Below, in pieces: positions 56,811-64,000 of a stretch of 64,000 bases of DNA; positions within the stretch are counted from its first letter, which is position 1; the number at the start of each line of letters is the position of its first letter. Under the pieces are notes generated by a model. It did no database searches and had not been told where the DNA came from. It saw only the letters and a list, made by a program, of their open reading frames with translations. The position numbers were made by a program, and so were the translations under genes. This DNA is from Hymenobacter jejuensis (GTDB lineage: Bacteria; Bacteroidota; Bacteroidia; Cytophagales; Hymenobacteraceae). The DNA lies in NCBI RefSeq assembly GCF_006337165.1, contig NZ_CP040896.1:1612001-1676000 (forward strand). The letters are read 5' to 3'.

Positions 56811-57494
56811 TTATCGGCCTCCAATGCGGCCTACCTTGGGGATTACCTGAATCAAAAAGCGTTTGTTTTCGTCTTCGCGGGCGGCGGTGTAGCGACCCGT
56901 GCCATAAAAACCACTGCCCCCGATGATCAGCTCAATGCCTTTGTCCTGGCTGAAATTGAGGCCGTTCTGCTTCCACAAGTTCAGCAGGTTGAGGGCGCGG
57001 CGATAGCTGAGCTGGTACGTAAGCTGCTCCTGTGCCCGGTTGCGCGGATCGCCCTGGGGGTAACGCGCCGCCATGCCCTCCACGATCACGAGGTAGCGCA
57101 CGGGCTGCTCGGTTTTGATGCTTTTCAGCACCGAGCGCAACGTGCGCCCGGCTTGCAACAGCGCCGGCTTGTACTGCTCCTCGATCTCGTCGCGGCCCGC
57201 TTTGAACTGCACTGGCACGAGCAACTCATGCCGCTCGTTTACGGGGTCATATTTAAAGTACTTACCCTCAAGGCGTTGCAACGAGCGTCTGATTTTGGTA
57301 ATCTGCTCTAGTTCCTCGGCTTTGGCCTTCAGTTCGCCGTTGGCGTTCTTCAGGTCGTTTTCTCGGTCTTTAAAAAGCTTGAAGCTGTAGACGAACAACA
57401 CCAGCATCACCACAAACAGCGACGTCATCAGGTCCACGTAACTGGGCCAGAAAAAGTCGTTGGATTGGCGGTTGTTAGAAGTTGAATTGTTCAT
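56811..57494 (-). CDS. MotB/ZorB-like stator protein with OmpA-type domain
   Basis: 227 residues. A short cytoplasmic N-terminus leads to one span, FFWPSYVDLMTSLFVVMLVLF, whose Asp at about 21 is placed like the proton-carrying Asp of MotB and ZorB. A helical linker (about 45-80) precedes an OmpA-like peptidoglycan-binding domain (FKAGRDEIEEQYKPALLQ, VIVEGMAARY, SYRRALNLLNLW, IIGGSGFYG). The canonical NxxLSxxRA is altered to LSYRRALNLL. It starts 21 nt after the channel gene and forms a unit with it. Expected to anchor the channel to the cell wall. Confidence 0.8.
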   Translation of the reverse strand: MNNSTSNNRQSNDFFWPSYVDLMTSLFVVMLVLFVYSFKLFKDRENDLKNANGELKAKAEELEQITKIRRSLQRLEGKYFKYDPVNERHELLVPVQFKAGRDEIEEQYKPALLQAGRTLRSVLKSIKTEQPVRYLVIVEGMAARYPQGDPRNRAQEQLTYQLSYRRALNLLNLWKQNGLNFSQDKGIELIIGGSGFYGTGRYTAAREDENKRFLIQVIPKVGRIGGR

Positions 57495-57515
57495 GAAAAC
57501 AGATGGAATGTGGGG

Positions 57516-58976
57516 TTACTGCGGCCTTACCCCACCAAACAACTGATCCATGAACCGTTGAAAACGGTTTTTGGAAGTAGCCTTCACCAGCACCGTATTC
57601 AGGTTTGATAGCTCCGAGAGCAGCTTGGCCTGAATCTGCGAGTCCAAGTCGATTTTGCGCATGAGTTCGCGCTGGGTGGCGGTCACGTCGCGCGACAAGG
57701 CATCTTGCTGACTATTAAGGCCTTGAAACGGCTCCAAATACCGCACGATGCGCTCGAATATGTTGTCGTGGTTGAGCTTTTGAAAGTATTGCCCCCACTT
57801 TTCGTAGGCCTGCTGGGCATCGCGTTCGTGGTAGCTGAGGCGGTGCTGCATCAGGTCGGTGAGGCGCAAGCTGGCGTCGTCGAAGTATTGCTCGGTGCGG
57901 GCCGCAAGGTTGCTCATCTCCTGCTGGTGGCGCTGGAAAAACTCAAGCTGATGCTGGATGAGGTTGTCGTGCTGCCCAATGTACTGGCCCACGTTGTTGA
58001 TGCCCCGCTCGAAGCCCACTAGCCGGTCCAGGATGCTGCTGACTTGCTGAGCCGTCTGGGTACCGTCGGCCAGCATCTTATTTAGTTGTTGCTGATAGCC
58101 AGTGAATTGCCCAAATAGCTCCGCCGACTCCCGGACTTTCTCAAATACGGCAATGTTGGCCTTAGCCATCTGGTCGTACCCGATTTTGTCGAGCGCTTCC
58201 AGGAAGTTGCTTTGCACCCGAATGTTGTCGGTGAGCTTGTCCATGATGGGCTCAAACAACGTGACCTTGCCCACAAAATCCTGATTGAACGCGTCCAGCA
58301 CGGCCTTCAGGTTGGTGAGGCTGCTGGCCATGTCGCTGTGCAGAATGGGCAGCAAGCGCGCTTGCAGGAACGTGTAGTAATTGTTCTGGCGCTGATCGAG
58401 CTGGTGGCGCGCGGCGCGTACCAAGCCGTTACCGAGCAGCGTGAGCAACAGCCCCACAAAACTACCCGTCATGGCGATGAGCACACCGGTCAGGAAGGGC
58501 GTAAGGGCGTTTTCGTCGGTTACGCCGTTGCGCGCAATGCCTACCAATCCCAGAATCACGCCCAAGAATGTGCCCAGCAAACCCAGATACAGTGGCGTCG
58601 CGACGTTGGCCAACACCGCATTTTCCAACACCTCCGACTGTCGCTCCGAGATGTCCTTCAGAATGCCGAAATCGGCCGCGGCCCCTTTGTTGTGGCGCAG
58701 GTAGTCGTTTGTGTCAACCAGAATTTCGCGGAACTCGTCCGTGGCGGTATCTGCTTTGATGAGGTCGGCCGGATAGGCATCGGCGGGCGCGTCGGCCGCA
58801 TAATCGGGCAGATCGTGCCCGTCGGGCGTTACCAGTCGATGCTCAACCCGCAACGTGCCCTTCGGCGGGTACAGTTGCCCTAGTCGTTGGGCATTGGCTT
58901 TGGTGCTAAGAAAAGTGCGTACCTGTAGCCCCACCACTACCAGCACAACGACAATTTCGAGCAGAATTTCAATCAT
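57516..58976 (-). CDS. MotA/TolQ/ExbB-type proton channel with long coiled-coil tail (ZorA-like)
   Basis: 486 residues. Span 1 at about 2-20, then a soluble stretch, then spans at about 125-150 (ATPLYLGLLGTFLGVILGLVGIA) and 165-190 (FLTGVLIAMTGSFVGLLLTLLGNGLV), the pore-forming pair of TolQ/ExbB/MotA proteins. The remaining 290 residues are helical and Gln/Leu/Asp-rich, predicted to form a long cytoplasmic tail as in ZorA. With the OmpA-type partner downstream it should make a 5:2 ion-driven motor. It is separate from GldL/GldM. No flagellar, Tol or TonB genes are nearby. Confidence 0.78.
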   Translation of the reverse strand: MIEILLEIVVVLVVVGLQVRTFLSTKANAQRLGQLYPPKGTLRVEHRLVTPDGHDLPDYAADAPADAYPADLIKADTATDEFREILVDTNDYLRHNKGAAADFGILKDISERQSEVLENAVLANVATPLYLGLLGTFLGVILGLVGIARNGVTDENALTPFLTGVLIAMTGSFVGLLLTLLGNGLVRAARHQLDQRQNNYYTFLQARLLPILHSDMASSLTNLKAVLDAFNQDFVGKVTLFEPIMDKLTDNIRVQSNFLEALDKIGYDQMAKANIAVFEKVRESAELFGQFTGYQQQLNKMLADGTQTAQQVSSILDRLVGFERGINNVGQYIGQHDNLIQHQLEFFQRHQQEMSNLAARTEQYFDDASLRLTDLMQHRLSYHERDAQQAYEKWGQYFQKLNHDNIFERIVRYLEPFQGLNSQQDALSRDVTATQRELMRKIDLDSQIQAKLLSELSNLNTVLVKATSKNRFQRFMDQLFGGVRPQ

Positions 58977-59004
58977 GAACGGAAGCTATAACCACGCTAA
59001 AGTT

Positions 59005-59155
59005 AGAGCTAAAAAGCTAGCTCCCCTCCTTTTTTCAAGGAGGGGTTGGGGGTGGTTATACTAGAAGTAGAAAACTAAAGCTAGTCTTCGTTCAACGGGT
59101 TTTACCACCCCCAGCCCCTCCTTAAAAAAAGGAGGGAAGCTAGCTTTTTAGCTCT
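59005..59155. mobile_element. MITE-like 151-bp inverted repeat
   Basis: Two 52-bp arms (59005-59056 and 59104-59155) are reverse complements with about four mismatches, around a 47-bp centre. Each arm itself holds a small hairpin (CCTCCTT / AAGGAGG) and a GGGGTTGGGGGTGGT-type run. Outer tips read AGAGCTAAAAAGCTAGCT. No open frame and no obvious target duplication. It fills most of the gap between the channel gene and the gene behind it, inside an apparent operon. Confidence 0.75.
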
Positions 59156-59186
59156 TTATATATAATTGATCGTCAATCAATTACTC
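59156..59186. repeat. 31-bp AT-rich palindrome, instance 13
   Basis: TTATAT, ATAA, TTGATCGTCAA, TCAA, TTACTC. Directly abuts the MITE-like repeat and includes the stop codon of the gene ending at 59181 (minus strand). Confidence 0.55.
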
Positions 59187-60716
59187 AAAGTGAATAGCTG
59201 CCTTCTGATCGATTTGCCAAGCGCCACTGGACTTGCGCAGGGTTCCGTCTTCATCTGTTACGATGCGCGAAACGGGCGTACTAGGCTGCTGGTAACGACA
59301 GGCATCGCGCAGCGAATATTGAGCGCTTTGGATGGCGTAGGCATGCACCTGCGAATTGGGATTGACCCGGAAGGTAGCCACGTCGGGGCGCTGGGGGTTG
59401 AGGGTGATCTCGTAAATGCTGTCGTGTTGGGGTTGCTCCTGCAAATCGTATTCGCTGAAACCGCCATTTACGGGCACTTTCACATAGAAACGCGCAACCG
59501 CAGGTTGTGGCGGAGTGACAGACGGTGCGAGCTGCGTAGCGGCCGACCAAGTATCAGCGGCGGGCAGCTGCACCGGCGGTACAAGACTATCAAACTCATC
59601 ACGCGAAGCCGTAGCCGGCGAACCCGCAGGAATAGCGGCGGGCGTTACGCTTGTTTCAGTTAAAGCGGGAGCGGGCTCGGCGTAAACAGGCGCAGCGGGC
59701 CGCTCTTCGTAAGCAGGAGTTGGCGAGGGAACCGGGGCAGGCGTTGGTGCAGTGGGCGCACTGGTAACCACCGGCGCTTTGGGCACTTCGCGGGCCGGCT
59801 GACGCTGCGGTTCGGCTACCGGAACAGGTGCTTTATCCCGTTTTGCAACATATTGATTGTCAGAAAGTTGCTCAGATACCCGCTGCTGCACCAAACGCTC
59901 GATTTCTTTTTGCAACTCCGGCGTCAGGCTTTTCATCGTGGGGCCGGCCCAAGTGGCAGCCGGAGCCGAGTTGGCCGCCGCTTTCACCGATTCCAACTCG
60001 CTGCGATGGCGGTCGGCGCGGGTGCCCAGCGCATTGATGCTGCGGCGCAGAAGCACGTACAGGAATAAGCTCAACAGCGAGAGGATCAGCGAGATCGGCC
60101 CGAAGAATTTATTCATGATGCTTTCCCCGGCCGAGCCGCGGCCCGTGCTGGCTACCTGATTGGCATCCGTCACCGGACCCGCATCCGAATCGACGGCCGC
60201 TGTGCTTTCGTCGGTGGTAGCCGTGGTATCAACCTGCGCCTCCGTTACCAGATTGGAGCTTACATCGCCGGGCGGAGTGCCGTTCTCCACGTAATTTTTC
60301 AGCGATGCCTCCAAGGCGGCCAAGGCCTGCATGCGCGCCGGGCTGGCTTTGCGAGCGGGCGAAGCTTTCAGCTTGGTAATAATTTCATTAGCAAGCTTTT
60401 GCAGCCGCGATTTATCCGAGCCCAAGCCCTTATACATGACGCCGCGCTTCTCCAGCGGCGTGTACAGTGCGCTATACACCTTCTGGCTATCTGCCTTGAT
60501 GCTGTTCTCAAACTCTTTCAGCGAACCGCTGCATTGAAGCGAGTTTTTCAGGTTGGGCCGCTTGTTGTCGTCGTACACAAAGCGGGCCGTCGCGCACCAG
60601 ATCTGAGCCTTCTGCTCGTCGAGCGTAGGCTGGCCGAGCGGGGTTTGGGCGTGGGCGCTGACCACTGTGAATAACAGACAAAGAAAGCAAAAAGCAAATC
60701 GGCAGATTGACCTCAT
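59181..60716 (-). CDS. Single-span envelope protein of the motor/ATPase cluster, unknown function
   Basis: 511 residues. Signal peptide MRSICRFAFCFLCLLFTVVSAHA, a helical periplasmic domain (about 25-150, with Cys near 41 and 62), one span near 205-225 (FGPISLILSLLSLFLYVLL), a coiled stretch, then a long Pro/Ala/Val-rich linker (about 300-400). A compact C-terminal beta-rich domain (RFYVKVPVNGGFSEYDLQEQ...) follows, presumably cytoplasmic. It could bridge the large ATPase and the channel pair. Starts 49 nt after the ATPase gene. I recognise no family. Confidence 0.65.
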   Translation of the reverse strand: MRSICRFAFCFLCLLFTVVSAHAQTPLGQPTLDEQKAQIWCATARFVYDDNKRPNLKNSLQCSGSLKEFENSIKADSQKVYSALYTPLEKRGVMYKGLGSDKSRLQKLANEIITKLKASPARKASPARMQALAALEASLKNYVENGTPPGDVSSNLVTEAQVDTTATTDESTAAVDSDAGPVTDANQVASTGRGSAGESIMNKFFGPISLILSLLSLFLYVLLRRSINALGTRADRHRSELESVKAAANSAPAATWAGPTMKSLTPELQKEIERLVQQRVSEQLSDNQYVAKRDKAPVPVAEPQRQPAREVPKAPVVTSAPTAPTPAPVPSPTPAYEERPAAPVYAEPAPALTETSVTPAAIPAGSPATASRDEFDSLVPPVQLPAADTWSAATQLAPSVTPPQPAVARFYVKVPVNGGFSEYDLQEQPQHDSIYEITLNPQRPDVATFRVNPNSQVHAYAIQSAQYSLRDACRYQQPSTPVSRIVTDEDGTLRKSSGAWQIDQKAAIHFE

Positions 60717-60765
60717 TATGAGAAGGTTTTGAGGATGGGACTGAATCTAAAGCTAGCAACCGGCG

Positions 60766-63700
60766 CTAGCTGTTCGGGTTGATCAGCTCGCGGCTCAGGT
60801 TGTACAGCGACTGCTTCAGCGTGTAGAAAAACAGCGTTTCGGGCAGGGTTTCGCCCTGGCTAAGCTGCCTATCGAGCTGGTGCAGGCCGAGGCTGAGGCT
60901 GTCTTCGATTTCGCGCAGCAGAAAGTCTTTCACGCGGGTGCGGTCCACGTCGACGCCTACGTCGCGCATGAGCGGTGCTACTTCGTCGCCGTCGAGCACG
61001 AGGTCGAGGAAGCGGCGGGTGTTGTCGAGCACGGTTTGCTTGAGCGTAGCATCTACTTGCGGCAGCTTCAGGCGCGTGCTTTCGATGTCGTTGCCTTCGA
61101 TAGCACCGCTGTATTTTACCGTCCGGATGTTGTCGAAATCGGCGTGGCTGGTCGAGCTGTCTTCAAACAGTACGCCGCCGTTGGTGGTAGCTTCCTTGGG
61201 GTTATCAGCCAGAATGACGCGGAAGTTGGCGGGCGGCTCTACGCCCGTCGCACCCTTAAACACGGCTTTCGTGATGCGCTCAATCGCGGCTAGGCTGCTG
61301 CCGCCACTGAGCAGCCGCAGATACAAGCTGCCTTTGCCCGAGAAACACAAATAACGCGGTGCCTTAAGTCCCAGATGCTGAACCAGTTGCGCCACATGGT
61401 AAATAATAGCCGTGTAGTGCAAATAGAACATCACCCGCAGTTGGCGCCCTTTGCCGAGGCCGAGGCTCTGGGTGAAGCGCAAGGCGTCGTTGTAGGCAAA
61501 CAGCAGGCTCGTCACGTCGGCGGAGCTGAAATCGGGGTTTTGCAGCGCCGCCCGCAGGTAGCCTTTGTATTCCTGGTTTTCCTCGCTATCAGGCAGACTC
61601 TCAACGTATTGCACCCCTAGCCGCAGCAAGCCGTTTTGCTTGGGCGCGCCCTGCACGCGGGCATAGCCATCGCCCCACAGATCGTCGCCAGCAAAGCGGA
61701 ATGACGAGCTAAAGGCCGGCCGCTGATCGGCGAAGATCAGCAAGTCGGTAGTGCCGCCACCGATGTCGATGTTGATGACGTTCTCGTCGCGGTTGGGCAC
61801 CACTTGGTTGGTGGCGGTGAGGTAGTAGTACGGCGCCACCGACTCCGACACAAACTGCGTGGTGCGGCGCGTCCGAAACACCTGCTGGAACGCCTCGTCC
61901 CACACCTGCTGAAACTGGTTGCGCAGGAAAGCATCAAAGCTCAGGGGCGCAAACCACACCACGCGGGTATCTTCCAGAATGCCGCCGTGCAGTGCCGCTT
62001 TGTGCTTCATCAGAAGCAGAATTTCGCGGAAAAAGGCCCCGATGCGCGATACGCCCTGCGGGTCGAGTTCGGCTGTCCACTTCAAATTCGTTACGAATCG
62101 GTTTTGGGGCGGCTGGTTGGTTTCGGTGTTGATGCTAAAACCTATGTTGATGTTACTGAGCACTTTACTTGGCTCGTTGGCATAGGCATTGGTTTCGCAA
62201 ACAGCCGTCCGGATCGGGAATTCATACACCGAACCCTGTTCGCCGATAATGCTGGGCACAAATTCCCGGTTTTGGATCAGCGGCACGTCAATGAGCTGGC
62301 CGGGGCCGCGCATGTAGCGCTGAAACGCCGAGTAGCCGGTGTCGGGCAGCGGGGCATTGAGCAGCTCCACTTGTACGTCGCTCTCCCCGATCGTAAACGG
62401 CCGTGGATGTGCCGCGGGCCCATCGGCATAAGCAACGTGGGTGTTGCTGGTGCCAAAATCGACGGCAAACGTGAAGCGGCGCGTGCCGCGATCCAGTTCG
62501 CGCCAGCGAGGCACGATAAGGCCCCGGGCCGGCTCAGCACCGTGGAAAGCCGGCGGACACGTCAGTTCCGCGATGTCGAAATGGGTGCCGGTGATTTCGT
62601 AATAGGTGCTGCCGGCTGTGGCAACGCTTTTTTGGGTGCGCTCGAAGCGGGTAGCGCGTTTGGAAGCGCCTTGCTCCGTAATCTGGTCGCCGCCGGCGAA
62701 GAACTTCAGATCGTAGCGCCGCTGGAGCATGGTTGGCGAGTTGTCGGCATCCACGAGCATGACTTTGTAGAAGTCGTTGTACTCGGGTTGCTGGCGCATT
62801 TTGTAGAACGGGAACACGCCCAGGCCAATGTTGGCCCGCACGATGCGGCCTTTCTCCGGAATCTCGCGGCCCTGCGCGTCCTTCGGGTTTTGTGGATTCT
62901 GGTAGTAGCTGCGCTCAAACGTGATGAAACGCCCGCCCTGCACCGGAATCCGAAGGGCCACGCGCACGTGGTTCAGGTCGATGGTAAACGTCAGCAGCTC
63001 CGCCAGATCGTGCTCCGTGAAATATTCGAAGAACGCCTGCCGCAGCGGCAACAAGTATGGGAAGCGCGCCCGGCCTTGCGTATCAGCACCGTACTGAAAC
63101 GTGACTTTGCCTGTATGAAAGCGCTGGGTGTTAAGCTCATACGGCAACTCTACCAACGCATCTTCCAGGAAGTCGCCGACGGTGAGGTACGGATATTTGA
63201 AGCCTTTGCCGGGCAGCACGCGGTTTTCCAGCGTCAGCTCGTCGGCGTACGGTACGGGCGTGCGGTCATCCCAAGGTTGACCGTTCAGGTAATTGGCACC
63301 GGCCATCGTGAGGTTGGGGCGCAACACCAGCGGACGCAGCTTGCCATTGCTCAGGTCGCGGGTAGCGGCAATAAATAAGTCGGAGCTCATTACAGCCGAC
63401 TGGTCGGCACGGCCGGGCAGCGGCACGTTTTTGATGCTGGCCAGGTTGCCCTGCAAATCGGGTAGTGCGGGGTACTTCGTGGCAAACTGGGCCGCGGTGT
63501 GTTCGCCCTGCATCTGCATCTGATTGATGCGCGAACGGTCGAGGCCGGCAAATACGCTTCCGGCAAACTCTCGGCGCTGCAACTGCGGATACGCCAGAAA
63601 CAGCTCGTACACAAACTCGCGGAACGCAAGCCCCCGGTCTTCCAGCAGAACCACTTGATTATCAAAGTAATGTCCGCGCGACTGAGGCCGCTCCAAATCC

Positions 63701-64000
63701 AGTGGAAATACCGTTGGGGCCGTAAAAAATAGCGTCAGCGGCGAGGTGCCTCCCAAGAGCCGCGGTCCGCCGGGCAGATTCGGCGACTCGTAGAACACCA
63801 AGTACATGTCGGTGAAGTCGCGGAAGCGGTCGTCCTGCAAAAACAGCTGCAAGGTTTCGCCCAGCAGGCGCGTGCCTTCGTCGGCGCGCATGCGTTGCAC
63901 CTCAGCCTGCGCATTCCAGCGGCGCAACGTGATTTTGCGCCCGGCTTGCGTGTAGAGATGGTAGTTGTAGAGCAGCTCAAACAAGTCCCAGAAGTGCGTT
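60766..64000 (-). CDS. Large protein with actin/Hsp70-type ATPase core, N-terminus beyond window
   Basis: At least 1072 residues; the frame is open to the window edge (THFWDLFELLYNY before the first in-frame TTG), so the start is missing. The first ~480 residues are a unique region. An actin/Hsp70-like ATPase fold follows: phosphate-1 loop AVDFGTSNTHVAYA near 505, phosphate-2 loop IDIGGGTTDLLIFA near 741 and adenosine-type loop CFSGKGSLYLRLL near 880 (numbers from that TTG). This suggests ATP-dependent conformational cycling; it vaguely resembles SrfB-type proteins, but that is not established. First seen gene of a four-gene minus-strand cluster with a ZorAB-like motor. Confidence 0.7.
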   Translation of the reverse strand, partial: THFWDLFELLYNYHLYTQAGRKITLRRWNAQAEVQRMRADEGTRLLGETLQLFLQDDRFRDFTDMYLVFYESPNLPGGPRLLGGTSPLTLFFTAPTVFPLDLERPQSRGHYFDNQVVLLEDRGLAFREFVYELFLAYPQLQRREFAGSVFAGLDRSRINQMQMQGEHTAAQFATKYPALPDLQGNLASIKNVPLPGRADQSAVMSSDLFIAATRDLSNGKLRPLVLRPNLTMAGANYLNGQPWDDRTPVPYADELTLENRVLPGKGFKYPYLTVGDFLEDALVELPYELNTQRFHTGKVTFQYGADTQGRARFPYLLPLRQAFFEYFTEHDLAELLTFTIDLNHVRVALRIPVQGGRFITFERSYYQNPQNPKDAQGREIPEKGRIVRANIGLGVFPFYKMRQQPEYNDFYKVMLVDADNSPTMLQRRYDLKFFAGGDQITEQGASKRATRFERTQKSVATAGSTYYEITGTHFDIAELTCPPAFHGAEPARGLIVPRWRELDRGTRRFTFAVDFGTSNTHVAYADGPAAHPRPFTIGESDVQVELLNAPLPDTGYSAFQRYMRGPGQLIDVPLIQNREFVPSIIGEQGSVYEFPIRTAVCETNAYANEPSKVLSNINIGFSINTETNQPPQNRFVTNLKWTAELDPQGVSRIGAFFREILLLMKHKAALHGGILEDTRVVWFAPLSFDAFLRNQFQQVWDEAFQQVFRTRRTTQFVSESVAPYYYLTATNQVVPNRDENVINIDIGGGTTDLLIFADQRPAFSSSFRFAGDDLWGDGYARVQGAPKQNGLLRLGVQYVESLPDSEENQEYKGYLRAALQNPDFSSADVTSLLFAYNDALRFTQSLGLGKGRQLRVMFYLHYTAIIYHVAQLVQHLGLKAPRYLCFSGKGSLYLRLLSGGSSLAAIERITKAVFKGATGVEPPANFRVILADNPKEATTNGGVLFEDSSTSHADFDNIRTVKYSGAIEGNDIESTRLKLPQVDATLKQTVLDNTRRFLDLVLDGDEVAPLMRDVGVDVDRTRVKDFLLREIEDSLSLGLHQLDRQLSQGETLPETLFFYTLKQSLYNLSRELINPNS

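Follow-up and report, generated by a model that had tools for sequence, protein, structure and literature searches.

Relation to described systems

Zorya systems consist of a ZorAB motor together with either ZorC/D or ZorE, with the tail of ZorA thought to relay a signal inward, and the myxobacterial Agl-Glt focal adhesion brings together a TolQR-type motor, the vWA surface lipoprotein CglB, an actin-like protein and a Ras-type GTPase. Features of both recur in a seven-gene operon of Hymenobacter jejuensis, four genes of which lie at the end of the 64,000-nucleotide stretch analysed here (contig NZ_CP040896.1, positions 1,612,001 to 1,676,000; the window), in a genome of 5.09 Mb on a single contig. 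The operon encodes, in order, a vWA-like lipoprotein, the small membrane protein TM130, the tubulin-like protein TubL, the actin/Hsp70-like ATPase SrfBL, the linker protein SPTM, a MotA/ZorA-like channel and its MotB/ZorB-like partner, and no paper describing it was found in the openly licensed literature, supplements excluded. Compared with Agl-Glt, the likeness is one of outline and of component types: a motor, a vWA-type surface lipoprotein, an actin-like protein and a cytoplasmic GTPase are present in both, but TubL is of the tubulin type rather than the Ras type and the motor is optional here.

The FtsZl1-vWA-OmpA operons, predicted in 2010 from cyanobacteria, Bacteroides and other organisms (Makarova and Koonin, PMC2875224), are the nearest in kind. 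In that paper, where function is predicted only, membrane remodelling is proposed and transport is suggested by a referee, and the operons are described, much as here, as placing a tubulin/FtsZ-like protein beside genes for a vWA protein, for membrane proteins and, in some cases, for one of OmpA-like type. In contrast, TubL homologues are only about 480-510 aa long, the long coiled coil of FtsZl1 is absent from the TubL model, and TubL scores under the threshold for FtsZl1 proper (Pfam Tubulin_2, 16.3 versus 27 bits), while neither an actin/Hsp70-like ATPase nor a motor driven by the proton motive force (PMF) is mentioned in the main text of the 2010 account. FtsZl1 proper is further marked by a helical C-terminal domain, and TubL does not fit that description as a whole. 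The seven genes also include no kinase or P-loop GTPase, as is likewise the case for many FtsZl1 operons.

A co-inherited core with an optional motor

The original prediction, made from the window alone, described a motor pair, a linker protein and an ATPase, all in one orientation, as a single Zorya-like machine whose genes might continue beyond base 64000. All four open reading frames were confirmed on the minus strand and are the downstream portion of the operon, the start of SrfBL and three further genes lying past that base (Table 1). The four genes do co-occur: of 93 related loci, among which some genomes are represented twice, 79 contain all seven genes in identical order, and most of the remaining loci are interrupted by contig ends. 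This association is far beyond chance, and the proposal of one system is upheld by the co-inheritance of its parts.

The motor, however, is an optional part, and the core consists of the vWA-like lipoprotein, TM130, TubL, SrfBL and SPTM. These five genes are kept with no motor beside them in several Cytophagales genera (L174, L177, L178, L180, L182, L189) and at a further locus (L190), and the same core order is found in Prevotella sp. oral taxon 299 as well as on two cyanobacterial plasmids, one from Gloeothece verrucosa PCC 7822 and the other from Picosynechococcus sp. PCC 7003. The two cyanobacterial copies have profile support for TubL (E 1e-51 and 1e-39), SrfBL (E 4e-30 and 4e-36) and the vWA protein (E 1e-12 and 4e-5), with support for the linker in one of the two (E 5e-7) and the TM130 slot assigned by position and hydrophobicity only. 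The Prevotella copy was not counted as plasmid-borne, its 1.77 Mb record being probably a second chromosome. Since the core occurs without MotAB in Cytophagales, in Prevotella, on cyanobacterial plasmids and in a phage, the idea that the ATPase serves as the effector of the motor is not supported; the original prediction is thus partly supported, being right about a single machine but centred on its optional motor, with the tubulin partner beyond its window. In a distant member of the Bacteroidota (G570), TubL and SrfBL share one cluster with a gene resembling MotA (PF01618, E 1e-4) and another resembling OmpA/MotB (E 1e-16), so that the association of the motor with the core may be old and have been lost several times.

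The place of MotAB is taken by WG-repeat proteins downstream of SPTM in some Cytophagales (L177, L178, L180) and by a TM2-domain protein in a cyanobacterium (L216:16493-17740); by eye, the repeats of the proteins that replace MotAB resemble the C-terminal domain of SPTM. In one genome (G040; L031, L250) the operon is apparently split, with SrfBL, SPTM and MotA at one site and MotB about 1.9 Mb away, adjoining genes that also border MotB in Rhodocytophaga aerolata.

Motor, envelope proteins and the relation to Zorya

The channel matches PF01618 barely over the cut-off (E 6e-5) and, as predicted, extends about 290 residues beyond its last span. The Asp noted in the single span of its partner (VDLMTSLF) is invariant in 19 of 19 diverse homologues. 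The partner also has a conserved LSYxRA motif, but the GHTD by which peptidoglycan binders are typically marked is missing and the match to PF00691 is below threshold; it is therefore a putative binder of the cell wall.

What the operon shares with Zorya is a motor of the MotA/MotB type whose channel has a long intracellular tail and whose partner has an OmpA-like periplasmic domain and a membrane-span Asp. The PADLOC models detect this distant ZorAB likeness (ZorB1, E 5e-14, along the entire protein; ZorA1, E 3e-5). The same features could be taken to indicate a divergent but true Zorya type, in which ZorAB would be sensor and motor, with SrfBL, TubL and SPTM as effectors. Yet the scores lie far under the curated NCBIfam cut-offs (20.7 versus 700 bits for ZorA2, 24.4 versus 400 bits for ZorB1), and the PADLOC ZorB model is non-specific: in 127 of 148 Cytophagales genomes it matches genes that are OmpA/MotB-like. 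Furthermore, the supposed effectors occur without the motor, PADLOC gave no match for the ATPase, the linker or TubL, no ZorC, ZorD or ZorE was seen in the neighbourhoods, and the core is built on two filament-fold nucleoside triphosphatases (NTPases). Membership of Zorya is accordingly very unlikely and already largely refuted: the description "Zorya-like but different" stands as regards a distant kinship of the motor in a system that is not Zorya, and is not supported as regards the motor as the defining part.

Among the core envelope proteins, SPTM has no family match in Pfam, NCBIfam, PADLOC or PHROG. The lipoprotein carries a conserved [DE]xSxSM motif, resembling a metal ion-dependent adhesion site, and a later conserved SD pair, on which its putative vWA character rests; it has no match to a Pfam vWA family.

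Two filament-fold NTPases, probably acting as one unit

The DFGTSNT, DIGGGTTD and CFSGKGS loops first noticed in SrfBL are present and are conserved among its relatives (as DFGT, DIGGG and SGKGS, in the C-terminal half of SrfBL). A structure model of a full-length homologue, 89% identical (mean predicted local distance difference test score 78.5, predicted template modelling score (pTM) 0.63), matches MreB, Hsp70 and ParM in structure comparison (best E 5.6e-8), albeit with low template modelling scores (TM-scores) that weigh against the match. Together, the phosphate-1, phosphate-2 and adenosine loops and the predicted fold place SrfBL securely in the actin/Hsp70 ATPase superfamily, with no finer assignment secure. 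SrfB (PF07520) of the srfABC operons is likewise a very long protein with an actin/Hsp70-like region, and matches SrfBL weakly at the DIGGGTTD loop; however, the score is under the cut-off (11.9 versus 27.1 bits), srfA and srfC are absent and the operon is a different one, and membership of this family was rejected. Short matches to the SrfBL profile in most genomes resemble the DIGGGTTD loop of FtsA and were not counted as relatives, and a search of the PDB by sequence gave no useful match. No system with a settled role was found to which the ATPase belongs. In one genome (G035, L037:4148-9528) a divergent SrfBL-like gene is adjacent to a separate Hsp70-family gene, with the other operon members absent.

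TubL is a tubulin/FtsZ-fold protein with a GTP loop. Its match to PF00091 (E 4.6e-5) is under the curated Pfam cut-off, the GTP loop IFGGTGA is invariant in its homologues, and the structural matches of its model (pTM 0.87) are led by tubulin, FtsZ and CetZ (probability 0.99-1, E 5e-4), again with low TM-scores that count against them. In one genome (G157) the two are fused: one reading frame of at least 1623 residues, uninterrupted by any stop, spans TubL, a short linker and SrfBL, which strongly indicates that they work as a unit. To our knowledge, no characterised system joins a tubulin-fold NTPase with an actin-fold NTPase. The G157 fusion directly adjoins the PARIS genes AriA/AriB, and a second, C-terminal fragment of SrfBL in the same genome adjoins a PtuA-like gene (together L175:1-8150 and L176:10114-12416).

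Both NTPase folds are known from plasmid partition systems, and the occurrence of copies on plasmids and a phage, together with a weak match of SrfBL to a PHROG 'partition protein' (E 0.0024), could point to segregation or positioning of DNA, with TubZ-like and ParM-like NTPases acting on DNA at the membrane. This explanation is very improbable: most copies are chromosomal, a DNA-binding adaptor or centromere-like array was not seen, and the constant companions of the pair are a lipoprotein, a linker and a motor, all of the envelope.

Movement by phage and allele replacement

A complete core operon has a DNA methylase and tail genes as neighbours on a 27-kb IMG/VR contig (IMGVR_UViG_3300034171_000222; L247/L249), further along which are genes for a tail sheath, a tape measure, a baseplate hub and a head maturation protease. 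On the evidence of these structural genes, the core is the cargo of a tailed phage or prophage in at least one instance. Two further IMG/VR contigs have matches, but their viral nature is unconfirmed and the neighbouring genes resemble those of hosts; the GenBank phage collection contains no match to SrfBL or to the phage-borne TubL.

Within Hymenobacter, the operon occupies one of three chromosomal sites, and its four sequence clades (A-D) are not bound to sites, clade C occurring at all three and clade D at two. At site 1 (L029, L099, L104, L106, L108), clade-C operons are adjoined by orphan SPTM genes that are intact and group with clade A, and these are best read as leftovers of a replaced clade-A operon; as the orphans fall at two places in the clade-A tree, more than one such replacement is suggested. 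In the RpoB tree, two carriers of clade C are placed with those of clade A, and one carrier of clade D with those of clade C. RpoB rejects the grouping of all C carriers in one clade (approximately unbiased test, p-AU 3.7e-5) but not that of all A carriers (p-AU 0.14), so that the case for swapping is made by the carriers of C and D together with the orphan SPTM genes. Taken together, these comparisons point firmly to the exchange of whole divergent alleles among the three sites, the alleles that replace entire operons being about 42-46% identical.

Gene organisation at the window

The features of the locus are listed in Table 1. The tubL gene is tightly flanked by an inverted repeat that is 99% complementary and whose core has four copies in the genome, in the manner of a dispersed palindromic element; inversion of tubL via this repeat could occur in principle.

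Table 1. Genes of the operon and the repeat flanking tubL (window coordinates; those above 64000 are extrapolated).
Feature	Position	Strand	Length	Description
motB-like gene	56811..57494	-	227 aa	single span carrying an invariant Asp; periplasmic domain OmpA-like; resembles ZorB, under curated cut-off
motA-like gene	57516..58976	-	486 aa	TolQ/ExbB/MotA-type channel, helical cytoplasmic tail of ~290 residues
SPTM gene	59181..60716	-	511 aa	signal peptide, periplasmic region, one span, proline-rich linker, conserved C-terminal domain
SrfBL gene	60766..64000, start 239 bases past window	-	1157 aa (1077 aa inside window)	actin/Hsp70-fold ATPase
TubL gene	64426-65874 (extrapolated, outside window)	-	482 aa	predicted tubulin-like GTPase
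TM130 gene	66079-66471 (extrapolated, outside window)	-	130 aa	small membrane protein
vWA-like lipoprotein gene	66577-67953 (extrapolated, outside window)	-	458 aa	putative vWA-like lipoprotein
Inverted repeat, first arm	64336-64414 (extrapolated; L002:14336-14414)		79 nt	flanks tubL
Inverted repeat, second arm	65897-65975 (extrapolated; L002:15897-15975)		79 nt	flanks tubL

Proposed mechanism

The topology of the machine, the role of the MotA tail as a transmitter and the purpose of the whole are what we infer from these parts. The operon would encode a machine that is anchored in the envelope and contains two nucleotide switches, the GTPase TubL and the ATPase SrfBL. These would be recruited by SPTM, TM130 and the vWA-like lipoprotein, the last lying at the periplasmic or outer face, and would assemble and act as a single unit on the inner side of the membrane. 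The operons of Hymenobacteraceae and several relatives also include the PMF-driven pair MotA/MotB, the periplasmic part of MotB probably holding the wall and the helical tail of MotA probably pushing on, or signalling to, the TubL-SrfBL unit. The role given to the tail follows the analogy with that of ZorA.

Conflict or envelope housekeeping

As to purpose, conflict with phages or with invading elements of other kinds is slightly preferred, at a little short of even odds, over housekeeping of the envelope. Carriage by phage and plasmids, patchy occurrence, allele swapping with its orphan remnants, the neighbouring PARIS and restriction-like genes and flanks richer in PADLOC matches all favour it. 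The patchiness is seen outside the family, with strong SrfBL matches in only 31 of 213 Cytophagales genomes other than Hymenobacteraceae and TubL in 8 of the 346 genomes of a phylum-wide sample, and the restriction-enzyme-like gene lies near the Prevotella copy. The flanks of loci outside the family matched 35 PADLOC families, versus 9 in an equal-sized control, an excess that is only suggestive. A defence role would fit the mobile carriage, the patchiness and the swapping of alleles.

Several observations weigh against conflict. In the flank comparison, the counts are of families rather than proteins, several of them arising from one protein, and the ZorB matches at one locus (L193) are to the operon's own MotB. 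SrfBL has a strong match in 36 of 37 genomes of the same genus, the 37th having only a divergent relative, and is single-copy in them, split matches aside; in a second sample it was found in 20/20 genomes of the genus and 8/9 of other Hymenobacteraceae. Such near-universal presence is unlike most defence systems, and combined with the lack of defence genes near the window's copy (PADLOC matched 0 of 9 neighbours) it makes for a poor fit to defence. Nor was a recognisable effector, whether a nuclease, a toxin or another, present in the operon.

The near-universal, single-copy retention and the lack of an effector favour envelope housekeeping, a quite possible if tentative explanation in which TubL and SrfBL would give shape or order to the inner membrane or to an adhesion complex at the surface, with the vWA lipoprotein as adhesin or scaffold and MotAB supplying mechanical force. 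It is also in keeping with the surroundings of the window's copy, ordinary-looking by eye (a nucleotidyltransferase, a LemA-like protein, a prolyl oligopeptidase and an acetyltransferase), with the same flanks recurring in Hymenobacter clade A and Adhaeribacter, and with kinship in kind to the FtsZl1-vWA-OmpA operons and the membrane-remodelling proposal made for them in PMC2875224. In addition, a vWA surface adhesin and 5:2 motors are discussed jointly in PMC12204202, where CglB and AglRQS are mentioned. Housekeeping accounts less readily for carriage by phage and plasmids, patchiness outside the family, replacement of whole operons by such divergent alleles and absence of the motor in many lineages, and the comparison with gliding is built on the types of component known for that machinery.

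The most far-reaching interpretation, with a probability of about one in three, is that of a mobile class of immune or conflict machine, in which TubL and SrfBL would form one unit tethered to the membrane, a vWA-type protein at the surface would be the sensor above it, and the rotary PMF motor would serve as an optional amplifier; moved by phage and plasmids, it would now be resident, and subject to allele swapping, in Hymenobacteraceae.

Implications

A ZorAB-like motor beside unfamiliar genes is, on this example, not necessarily Zorya. The adjacency of TubL and SrfBL from cyanobacteria to Bacteroidota, with one instance of fusion, presents a pairing of tubulin and actin folds. The question of the FtsZl1/vWA operons, open since 2010, gains a second NTPase, an optional motor and a phage-borne form, and, in a genus where nearly every species carries the operon, becomes accessible to simple deletion tests.

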